This document shows positions 1 through 48,585 of a stretch of DNA of 64,000 nt, one piece after another. A program made the position numbers and the translations under genes. The stretch is taken from positions 1 through 64,000 of the forward strand of contig RFGC01000037.1 of NCBI GenBank assembly GCA_003697135.1, written 5' to 3'. How positions within the stretch are numbered: the stretch's first letter is position 1; every line of letters starts with the position of its first letter. The notes below the pieces were generated by a model, which was not told where the DNA came from, made no database searches, and worked only from the letters and a program-made list of their open reading frames with translations. This DNA is from Acidobacteriota bacterium. GTDB taxonomy: Bacteria > Acidobacteriota > Blastocatellia > Pyrinomonadales > Pyrinomonadaceae.

Positions 1-307
1 ACCAAAGGAAAGGTATCTGGAGAAGATGGAAGAGGAAATGATGGTCGTTGTAGTTTTCTGGGTCTAGGATTGTGAGAGGAAGCCATTTGAACTCTGGTAG
101 GCCGTTGCCGCTACTGAGGCTTTCCCAAAGCATTTGACTCCAGCGAATATGATAGTATCCGTCCCAATCGCCACAGCAGATAGCATCGGTTGCTCGCTGC
201 AAGATTGTCATCAGCATCAAGATAGCCAAAAACCCGAAAATCAAATAAACCCAGCGAATAGCATCTTCACTACCTAGCCACTCTTTCCACGAGTGTTTCT
301 CGTCCAT
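1..307 (-). CDS. GT-C-like membrane glycosyltransferase, N-terminal part (runs off window)
   Basis: The frame opens with ATG at 307 and stays open to the window edge, so only about 102 N-terminal residues are seen. There is a short charged N-terminus, then one hydrophobic segment (about residues 19-36), then an extracytoplasmic-looking loop with a D-W-D-G-Y-Y-H-I-R motif, a W-L-P pair and an N-D-H-H-F-L-F-H motif. An acidic DxD followed by YYH and later DHHF after the first membrane helix resembles GT-C polyprenyl-sugar transferases of the STT3/PMT superfamily. That family assignment is inference from motif layout in a fragment. No clear Shine-Dalgarno sequence is seen. Donor and acceptor cannot be named. 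Confidence 0.55.
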   Translation of the reverse strand, partial: MDEKHSWKEWLGSEDAIRWVYLIFGFLAILMLMTILQRATDAICCGDWDGYYHIRWSQMLWESLSSGNGLPEFKWLPLTILDPENYNDHHFLFHLLQIPFLW

Positions 308-43804: not shown

Positions 43805-44830
43805 TCATATTAAGCCTTTTTCGCTGAGTTTTTCAATGACGCTTCTTTGGGTTTCGATGAAATGCTCTCTTGAAGGGCTTTTTTCAAGCAAAGTGTTGGG
43901 TGGGTAGAAGGAATTTTGCGCATACATTGGCGCATAGAGTTCAAATCTTTGACGCGAAAGAACATTCATAAGTCCCGGACGTCGCCGATACCTTCTTAGC
44001 GCGCTCAAGTCAATCTCTGCAAATGCACTCATTGTTTCGCCATGTGCCGCTTCGGCTATCACGATGCCTCTGTAGTCAACTATTTTCGAGCCACCGTTTG
44101 TAGAGTCTTCCGGAATTGGTATATTCGCAATGCCTGCGGAGTTCGCTGAAACAACATAAACCATGTTTTCGTAGGCGCGTGCTTGCTTTGCAATATCTTT
44201 TGGCGTTTTGGTCGGCGAGATGGCTTCGGATGAGGAATGACATATAACTTCGGCGCCTCTCATCACAAGGCATCTGGTGATTTCCGGATAGACGATTTCT
44301 TCAGAGACGACACAAGCTAAATTCCCGATTTCCGTTTTAGCAACGGGGAAAACACCTTCAAGGCCATAGATTTCAAGATATTTGTCCCAAACGTCATGCG
44401 GAGTTGGTGCAAACATCGAATACAAACGCCGATAGCGGAGAATAACATCGCCGTTGGGCGCGATTATGAAAGAAGTTTGGAAGTAAAGGTTGGGAAAATG
44501 GCGATCAAGTTCATAAGCATTTCCGCTCAAAAATATCCGATTTTTGCTTGCTACTTCGCCGAGAAGCTCATAAATTTCGCCGTCCGGTTCTATGCAGGCT
44601 TTTTGTTGCCATTGTTCTATGGACTCGCCCATCGGAAAGCCTGTTAAAAAATACTCAGGTAGAACAACCAAGGCAACATCTCTACCGACGAAAGCGATGC
44701 TTGCCGCTATTTGCTTTGCAAGTCTTTCGATGGTTTGTTTCATAATAGATACCGCTTCTTCTCTGGAAGAAGCGGCGTTCACGGCGTAACATTTTGCTTG
44801 TAGCGCAATTGCACGATAACTTTCAGCCAT
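43805..44830 (-). CDS. Nitrilase-superfamily (carbon-nitrogen hydrolase) protein with Arg at the catalytic Lys position
   Basis: A 341-aa protein with the nitrilase fold. Glu59 (VVLPEYFLTGFP) is the general base and Cys173 (LACVVSEEIVYPEITR) the nucleophile. The expected Lys of the Y-R-K motif reads RYRRLYSM, giving Arg135; I checked the codon. The C-terminal part has LVMRGAEVICHSSSEAI and RAYENMVYVVSANSAG, like formamidase/aliphatic amidase or N-carbamylase branches. Its neighbours are hyuA (26 nt upstream) and tgt. It could act on hydantoin-derived or related amides if catalytic; the Lys-to-Arg change may reduce or abolish hydrolysis. Confidence 0.75.
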   Translation of the reverse strand: MAESYRAIALQAKCYAVNAASSREEAVSIMKQTIERLAKQIAASIAFVGRDVALVVLPEYFLTGFPMGESIEQWQQKACIEPDGEIYELLGEVASKNRIFLSGNAYELDRHFPNLYFQTSFIIAPNGDVILRYRRLYSMFAPTPHDVWDKYLEIYGLEGVFPVAKTEIGNLACVVSEEIVYPEITRCLVMRGAEVICHSSSEAISPTKTPKDIAKQARAYENMVYVVSANSAGIANIPIPEDSTNGGSKIVDYRGIVIAEAAHGETMSAFAEIDLSALRRYRRRPGLMNVLSRQRFELYAPMYAQNSFYPPNTLLEKSPSREHFIETQRSVIEKLSEKGLI

Positions 44831-47197: not shown

Positions 47198-47224
47198 ATC
47201 GGCAGAGCAAAATACTCTGCCGAT
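47198..47224 (-). terminator. Terminator after the protoglobin gene
   Basis: A 10-bp perfect stem ATCGGCAGAG/CTCTGCCGAT with a 7-nt loop, about 37 nt after the protoglobin stop; a short TTTTC follows on the minus strand. Confidence 0.7.
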
Positions 47225-47260: not shown

Positions 47261-47845
47261 TCAAAAGTCGCCTTCCTTGATATAAGGATAGCTCCACAAG
47301 GCTACTTGCATCACGACAGACTTAAACCAAGCCTGATGCATTTTTTCCACCTCTTCAGGGCTATGTCCTTTCTTTGCCAAAAAAGGTTTAATAGTAGCCG
47401 TAATCGGGTAAATGAAGGCTACCATGTAGCGATAGCTAACATTTGGAACCGACTCCACATTGTCGGTTTTGTTCTTTTTAGTGCGGTGATGCCGTAGTCC
47501 TATTTCGTAAGCATAATCTAGCCATGCTTTGTCGTAAGGGCGATTGCAAGTATCCAGAATCCATTGGCCAAAGCGTTTGCGCACAGCCGCTAGGTATTCG
47601 GTGTTTGCATTGCCCTTACCGTCGGTGAAATAATAAACTAAGTGCGGGTGAGAGCCTACAAAGCCATACCATAAGTCAAGCACATCTTCGATTTGGTCTG
47701 CTAGGACCTCACCCGCCATGCGCAGGTATTGTTCATCTTCAGCAGTAAAGAGGACTGCCTTTTTAAGATTTTCAAAATCCTCCATCGTAAGTGGAGAAGA
47801 AGAAACTTCCTGTGTCCCGTAAGTATATCCAGCAATTTCAGCCAT
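47261..47845 (-). CDS. Single-domain protoglobin
   Basis: A 194-aa protein. AAGGAGG lies upstream of ATG 47845; the longer open frame (to 47899) adds residues without a ribosome site. Residues Trp59-Tyr60, Phe92 and His119-His120 (in RHHRTKKN) fall almost exactly where Methanosarcina protoglobin has Trp60, Tyr61, Phe93 and proximal His120. It is a haem protein binding O2, CO or NO. It has no fused output domain, so its role is sensing, scavenging or redox chemistry. It lies 67 nt downstream of a MarR gene with a Cys-rich tail, probably the same transcript. Confidence 0.92.
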   Translation of the reverse strand: MAEIAGYTYGTQEVSSSPLTMEDFENLKKAVLFTAEDEQYLRMAGEVLADQIEDVLDLWYGFVGSHPHLVYYFTDGKGNANTEYLAAVRKRFGQWILDTCNRPYDKAWLDYAYEIGLRHHRTKKNKTDNVESVPNVSYRYMVAFIYPITATIKPFLAKKGHSPEEVEKMHQAWFKSVVMQVALWSYPYIKEGDF

Positions 47846-47912
47846 AGTTTTCTTCCTCCTTATAAGTTTTATGAGTGCCTTTTTAGAACAATCTTTCAAC
47901 CGCAGAACAAAT

Positions 47913-48536
47913 TTATTTTCCCGTTTCTATCGGGGTGGAATCGGGGCATTCAAGATATGTTTCAGGTTCGGATAGCGGAGCGTCCATAAAAGCGCAATGG
48001 TGAGGGGTTTTCGGATTATCAGGGTGTGCATTTGGACGGAAAAATTGGCATTTCCAGCACATTTCGTAAACATTCACATATCCTGCTTTTTGAAGACGTC
48101 GAACAATCGTTTGAGTTGCTTTCAGCAAAACCATTTTTTCTGAGGTAGGCAATGATTCTATTGCAGATTCAATTTCATCGAGCACATCTTCGAGTTTTTC
48201 TATTTCACCCTTGCCTTTTTGCGTCAGCTCAAGCTCTATAATTCGCTTGTCTTCGGCTGAGGGAATTCGGCGGATCAAATCCTTTCGTTCAAGCGCATCG
48301 GCGACGCCACTCGAAGTGGCATAAGTAACTCCCAGCCGTTCAGCAAGTCCTCCAATGGTGCGGACGCCCGAACGAGCATATTTCAAAAATATGAGCGATT
48401 GAATCTGAGCAGAGGAAAGATGCGCGCTTTTACCCCGTTCTCGAAAAAGACGTTCTATGGCTTGAGCAATTCGATAAAATGCTATCGTGATTTGTCCGCT
48501 AAGCCTGTTTCTATGTTCTGGGTTGAAAGATGTCAT
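47913..48536 (-). CDS. MarR-family regulator with C-terminal four-Cys motif
   Basis: A 207-aa protein. The winged HTH (about 40-105) has HLSSAQIQSLIFLKYA, VRTIGGLAERLGVTYATSSGVADALERKDLI and the wing RIPSAEDKRIIELELTQKG. After the dimer helices a tail carries Cys160, Cys163 (CWKCQFF), Cys181 (HHCAFMDAPL) and Cys197 (YLECPD). Such a tail could bind zinc, an Fe-S cluster or sense thiol/NO chemistry. AGGAGTG precedes the ATG, and a palindrome overlaps that region. The gene precedes the protoglobin gene, suggesting a gas- or redox-responsive unit. Confidence 0.88.
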   Translation of the reverse strand: MTSFNPEHRNRLSGQITIAFYRIAQAIERLFRERGKSAHLSSAQIQSLIFLKYARSGVRTIGGLAERLGVTYATSSGVADALERKDLIRRIPSAEDKRIIELELTQKGKGEIEKLEDVLDEIESAIESLPTSEKMVLLKATQTIVRRLQKAGYVNVYEMCWKCQFFRPNAHPDNPKTPHHCAFMDAPLSEPETYLECPDSTPIETGK

Positions 48537-48555
48537 TATTTAGCACTCCTAAATA
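48537..48555. promoter_or_regulatory. Palindromic operator candidate in the marR 5' region
   Basis: TATTTAG-CACTC-CTAAATA, a perfect 7-bp inverted repeat with a 5-bp spacer. It lies between the -10 element and the start codon and overlaps the Shine-Dalgarno, a position suited to autorepression by the encoded MarR dimer. Confidence 0.55.
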
Positions 48556-48585
48556 TTTATAATAAGCAATACGATTGTCTGTCAA
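48556..48585 (-). promoter_or_regulatory. Sigma70-type promoter for the marR-protoglobin transcript
   Basis: On the minus strand TTGACA (48585-48580), an 18-nt spacer and TATAAA (48561-48556), about 20 nt upstream of the marR start. Confidence 0.75.

Follow-up and report, generated by a model that had tools for sequence, protein, structure and literature searches.

Protoglobins bind O2 and CO, and their role has been described as unknown (PMC3680402). The locus characterized here, from a 64-kb stretch of acidobacterial DNA (the window), joins a gene for a MarR-family regulator with a cysteine-bearing tail to a gene for a single-domain protoglobin, and raises the question of which signal the regulator answers and what the globin does in response. 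We consider it rather probable that the two genes form an operon for nitrogen-oxide defence, in which an autorepressor with an NO-responsive four-cysteine (Cys4) domain controls a globin that detoxifies.

Organization of the Locus

Both genes lie on the minus strand, the regulator gene first and the globin gene 67 bp behind it (Table 1). The initial annotation had described the pair as framed by one promoter, a 19-bp palindrome and one terminator; the sequence bears this out, and the promoter layout recurs in relatives. The promoter directly abuts the palindrome, in which 8 of 9 pairs match and which contains AGGAG and adjoins the ATG of the regulator gene. A generic promoter scanner, which applies a stricter rule, misses the promoter. 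The globin gene is followed by a hairpin with a perfect 10-bp stem and then TTTT. A second operator was looked for in the intergenic gap, and none was found there. Since palindromes of similar quality occur at six 19-mers within the window, the element is not significant by itself, and its judgement on window sequence was dropped; its significance derives from conservation across relatives.

Table 1. Features of the regulator-globin locus, with positions in the window.
Feature	Position	Strand	Basis or remark
Promoter, TTGACA-18-TATAAA	48556..48585	(-)	Read from sequence; Chloroflexota relatives with matching layout
Candidate operator palindrome, TATTTAGGAGTGCTAAATA	48537..48555	(-)	Overlaps expected transcription start and ribosome site
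MarR-family regulator, 207 aa	47913..48536	(-)	ORF; Pfam MarR; AlphaFold2 MarR fold; Foldseek
Regulator winged helix-turn-helix and dimerisation helices	residues ~1-150		
Regulator C-terminal Cys4 domain	47916..48086	(-)	Residues 151-207; Cys160, 163, 181, 197
Intergenic gap, 67 bp	47846..47912	(-)	AAGGAGG ribosome site for globin
Single-domain protoglobin, 194 aa	47261..47845	(-)	PF11563, E=9e-40; 2veb, E=3.4e-99
Terminator-like hairpin, ATCGGCAGAG-TATTTTG-CTCTGCCGAT, then TTTTC	47198..47224	(-)	Read from sequence

The Regulator and Its Cys4 Tail

The regulator contains a MarR-type winged helix (PF12802, MarR_2, 42.7 bits with a cut-off of 27; PF01047, MarR, 41.3 bits with a cut-off of 24.6). 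It has four cysteines in all, every one of them in the C-terminal extension, where the initial annotation had placed them. Their spacing of 2/17/15 gives the pattern CxxC-x17-C-x15-C that marks what we call the Cys4-MarR family. The tail has no match in Pfam or NCBIfam, and neither collection holds a model for the subfamily. All four cysteines are invariant across 79 diverse relatives, in an alignment that was pre-filtered on the Cys4 pattern after a search with a profile seeded with tailed sequences; the filter dropped a single HMM match, which was frameshifted (L087).

When modeled by AlphaFold2 with these 79 sequences, the protein reached a mean pLDDT of 92 and the tail was predicted as folded, at block means of 72-96. 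Short strands and a turn surround the cysteines in this model; the tail had been uncertain in an earlier one built from 29 sequences. Foldseek matches to the model are ordinary MarR structures (MepR, ST1710, PefR, and others) that cover the first ~150 residues only, and no solved structure among the top matches reaches over the Cys4 tail. With canonical MarR proteins such as MepR, ST1710, SlyA, and PefR, the regulator shares the winged helix-turn-helix fold and the dimerisation helices, together with a palindromic candidate operator and probable autoregulation; its tail sets it apart.

The Protoglobin

The globin matches PF11563, has no further or transmitter domain, and possesses Trp B9, Tyr B10, Phe E11 and the proximal His. 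Its best solved relative is the protoglobin of Methanosarcina acetivorans (MaPgb; 2veb), to which it is ~75% identical and with which it shares the heme-pocket residues, here W59, Y60, F92 and H119. The assignment of Trp59, Tyr60 and Phe92 in the initial annotation stands, but its label for the proximal histidine was off by one: His119 of the window protein aligns with the proximal His120 of MaPgb, and residue 120 of the window protein is also His. A 212-aa reading of the globin from a TTG at 47899 was rejected as a mechanical extension. Unlike the window copy, the archaeal copy in Methanosarcina (L036) has no Cys4-MarR that we could find beside it. In vitro, MaPgb acts both as a nitrite reductase and as a peroxynitrite isomerase (PMC4020757).

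Conservation and Descent of the Pair

Scanning genome contigs from the globin outward, we found a Cys4-MarR gene within the fetched flank at 42 of 70 loci, frequencies that describe a sample of close relatives, to which the scan's reach is confined. Gene calls in relatives were ORF-based, and many of the genomes are metagenome bins. The paired loci come from nine phyla (Chloroflexota, Armatimonadota, Cyanobacteriota, Acidobacteriota, Planctomycetota, Bacteroidota, Chlorobiota, Actinomycetota, and Calditrichota), so that the proposed conserved adjacency of a Cys-tailed MarR and a protoglobin is strongly upheld. Three cassette orders were seen (MarR-globin, globin-MarR, and divergent), often with a small third gene between, whose product is a glutaredoxin or in some cases DUF2024 in Chloroflexota, and DUF2024 in Bacteroidota. 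Distances among the regulators correlate with those among the globins (r=0.57 vs. a permutation maximum of 0.22), and the two trees agree. Where the globin locus lacks a Cys4-MarR, 21 of 27 genomes have none anywhere. An HxlR-type regulator, a second and unrelated type for the same globin, is often found near such loci (L017, L019, L037, L043, L057, and L065); at L017 its gene is divergent and just upstream of the globin.

Both genes of the window cassette group with copies from Chloroflexota and Armatimonadota (70% identity for the MarR, 84% for the globin). Among named genomes, the host is closest to Pyrinomonadaceae SKYG66 (Acidobacteriota; same-genus genome G001), which carries a different Cys4-MarR, 27% identical to that of the window, and a globin of 70% identity, 1.3 kb apart. 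The simplest reading is that regulator, putative operator and globin moved together by lateral transfer. Close to the window cassette there is also a gene for a carbon-nitrogen hydrolase (43805-44830), and in SKYG66 such a gene separates globin and MarR (L016, 5888-7135).

The Operator Across Genomes

The palindrome in the window exemplifies a putative operator, TATTTAGGANTCCTAAATA, that recurs across phyla and stands before the first cassette gene in whatever gene order. Scored at 14 positions with a threshold of at most two mismatches, it was present in 49 of 64 distinct MarR-globin pairs, with a consensus derived partly from loci that were later counted, a circularity against which the controls and the regulator-first loci guard in part. 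A reversed-pattern control matched in 0 of 64 pairs, composition-matched random palindromes reached 0.7%, and a site was present at 1 of 31 globin loci that lack Cys4-MarR. In the remaining 15 pairs the best site exceeded two mismatches; some GC-rich genomes have a weak element or none. We counted 21 exact copies of the core, TTAGGANTCCTAA, in 36 genomes, 18 of them at the cassette when positions were compared, with four sites for the reversed control. These comparisons lend strong support to the earlier proposal of a genuine operator at this position, and the conserved 19-bp palindrome at the regulator's own promoter is a candidate for the kind of site, a palindrome of 16-20 bp, that MarR dimers bind.

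Among matches in the host genome, that in the window ranks first, with one mismatch. We sought a wider regulon genome-wide in the host, and since other matches there were at control level, the window regulator appears dedicated to its own operon. In Pirellulaceae KatS3mg110 (L054, at about 4907 and 9811), a second protoglobin start lies about 4.9 kb downstream of the first, and each is preceded by the same operator, ATGTTAGGAGTCCTAACTA. A Leptolyngbyaceae contig (L055) carries a protoglobin and two operator copies (266 and 1482) with no Cys4-MarR on the contig; Cys4-MarR genes are present elsewhere in that genome.

Other Targets of the Regulator Family

A census taken from the regulator outward covered five phylum-level samples, each a set of about 300 genomes. 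At 73 of 83 Cys4-MarR loci, at least one member of a single small gene set lay within 3 kb: protoglobin (33 loci), a CPVC mini-thioredoxin (21), DUF2024 (15), a secreted protein of about 240 aa (11), cytochrome P460 (7), glutaredoxin (5), hybrid cluster protein (Hcp; 2), YgbA_NO (2), a DUF438-hemerythrin-PAS protein (2), and a multihaem cytochrome (1). In this census a globin adjoins 14 of 20 Cys4-MarRs from Chloroflexota and 12 of 15 from Actinomycetota. At the Hcp, YgbA_NO, DUF438-hemerythrin-PAS, and multihaem cytochrome loci, the operator lies directly before the MarR gene and the target follows the MarR, while P460, mini-thioredoxin, DUF2024, and secreted-protein genes have operators of their own. 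Nitrosative-stress targets are present for the regulator family across genomes; in the window, the globin is the sole target seen. The targets found in many aerobic members of Bacteroidota and Pseudomonadota, namely mini-thioredoxin, DUF2024, and secreted protein, do not point to NO in particular.

YgbA is a nitrosative-stress gene under NsrR control in bacteria, and the Pfam name agrees. The same holds for Hcp (Filenko 2007, cited in PMC12343034), and P460 enzymes have hydroxylamine and NO as substrates (PMC5872139, PMC11928373).

The 77-aa mini-thioredoxin, with weak Pfam matches only, repeatedly precedes DUF2024 and Cys4-MarR, mostly with its own operator (L153, L157, L164, L165, L167-L169, L171, L208, and L213). 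The secreted protein (~240-280 aa, motif TSHPDFDDTPLWDEN, no Pfam match) likewise recurs beside Cys4-MarR in the Bacteroidota, Chloroflexota, Pseudomonadota, and Acidobacteriota sets (L153, L160, L163, L208, L213, L227, L234, and L181).

Discussion

Comparison among genomes establishes the linkage of regulator, putative operator and globin, the identity of that operator, and the invariance of the four cysteines, and it strongly supports the pairing of the predicted repressor with its site. In the mechanism we propose, a dimeric MarR-type repressor would bind TATTTAGGANTCCTAAATA, an element that spans the operon's transcription start and ribosome site, and would so keep both MarR and protoglobin switched off. 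NO, or a relative such as peroxynitrite or hydroxylamine, would react with the C-terminal Cys4 domain, which may hold a metal or an Fe-S cluster; the repressor would then leave the operator, and the globin would be made and would scavenge or convert the nitrogen oxide. We infer repression rather than activation, a mode that fits because the operator covers the expected transcription start. Sensing of NO or an oxidant by the Cys4 site, as first suggested, has become more likely because the same regulator family targets P460, Hcp, YgbA, and hemerythrin. Nitrogen oxides are preferred as the signal mainly because the Hcp, YgbA, and P460 targets and the activities of MaPgb converge on them, and the globin would act as a detoxifying enzyme.

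Cys4 knuckles often hold zinc and thiol-sensing MarR proteins are well known, so the regulator might be a thiol or zinc sensor of oxidants. Its Cys4 site would then coordinate Zn or become oxidized to disulfides, its signal would be hypochlorite, peroxide, electrophiles, or low-molecular-weight thiol stress instead of NO, and the globin would count as one of several redox-protective proteins, in keeping with neighbours such as glutaredoxin, the CPVC mini-thioredoxin, and DUF2024 with its CRFCH. However, this explanation does not account for an operator shared with the genes for Hcp, YgbA_NO, and cytochrome P460, and we regard it as rather unlikely. It is improbable that the tail holds an O2-labile cluster and serves as a switch for O2, CO, or redox status, with globin levels tuned to oxygen and no detoxification: Hcp and YgbA, the regulon members of anaerobe-like genomes, are nitrosative-stress genes, and genes for oxidases or oxygen respiration were not found among the recurrent neighbours, even though protoglobins bind both gases (PMC3680402) and many carriers look microaerophilic or thermophilic.

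The MarR fold, the presence of PefR among the structural matches, and a heme protein as target would also suit a PefR-like regulator that receives heme or a small molecule in the canonical MarR pocket, with a purely structural tail. Yet nothing in the family is as well conserved as the four cysteines, and its targets are other than heme synthesis or export genes, which makes such a regulator improbable. Finally, the window cassette appears to have moved as a unit, judging from its nesting among Chloroflexota and Armatimonadota copies, and horizontal transfer could have carried the two genes along as neighbours that are unconnected in their regulation; given pairing in nine phyla and in three gene orders, with an operator that follows the regulator, we consider this extremely improbable.

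A working precedent for the proposed nitrogen-oxide mechanism is ArnR of Corynebacterium glutamicum, the nearest functional analogue we found. ArnR has a MarR/ArsR-like winged helix-turn-helix and a C-terminal Cys domain that binds [4Fe-4S]; it targets narKGHJI and hmp, represses the latter, which is the flavohaemoglobin gene, releases DNA upon reaction with NO, and is reported almost only in Actinobacteria (PMC12343034). The likeness extends to the dimerisation helix and to the control of an NO-detoxifying globin gene. ArnR has three conserved cysteines (179, 193, and 223), whereas Cys4-MarR has four, and the latter is further distinguished by its own putative operator, its protoglobin partner, and its occurrence in at least nine phyla. 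By the cysteine number and spacing given in PMC12343034, the family is not ArnR. With a spacing that differs from ArnR, the Cys4 site could equally be a structural zinc site.

In the open-access literature searched, we found no link between protoglobin and MarR, no record of the operator sequence, no description of the Cys4-MarR subfamily, and none of DUF2024 or P460 with MarR. Within that literature, a MarR repressor with this sensor-like domain and conserved regulon appears to be new. The target types shared with NsrR, HcpR, and NorR are Hcp, YgbA-type, hemerythrin-like, and NO-handling heme proteins. The folds of these regulators differ from MarR, being Rrf2 in NsrR, CRP/FNR in HcpR, and NtrC-type in NorR. 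On balance we lean toward a phylum-spanning class of NO regulator that joins MarR to a Cys4 sensor, of Fe-S or Zn type, at the C-terminus, recognizes TTAGGANTCCTAA, and targets protoglobin, P460, Hcp, YgbA, hemerythrin, and small thiol-redox proteins.

Such a class would add a MarR-based Cys4-domain type to the known NO regulators and would partly fill the role played elsewhere by NsrR, HcpR, or NorR. Two uncharacterised families, DUF2024 and the secreted protein, would be linked to the same response as protoglobin. Because the protoglobin has a dedicated, conserved regulator and this regulator a defined operator, the inducing signal is open to direct tests, and the pairing predicts a protoglobin regulon shared with recognised nitrogen-oxide genes. 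If the proposal holds, it would give protoglobins a physiological role.
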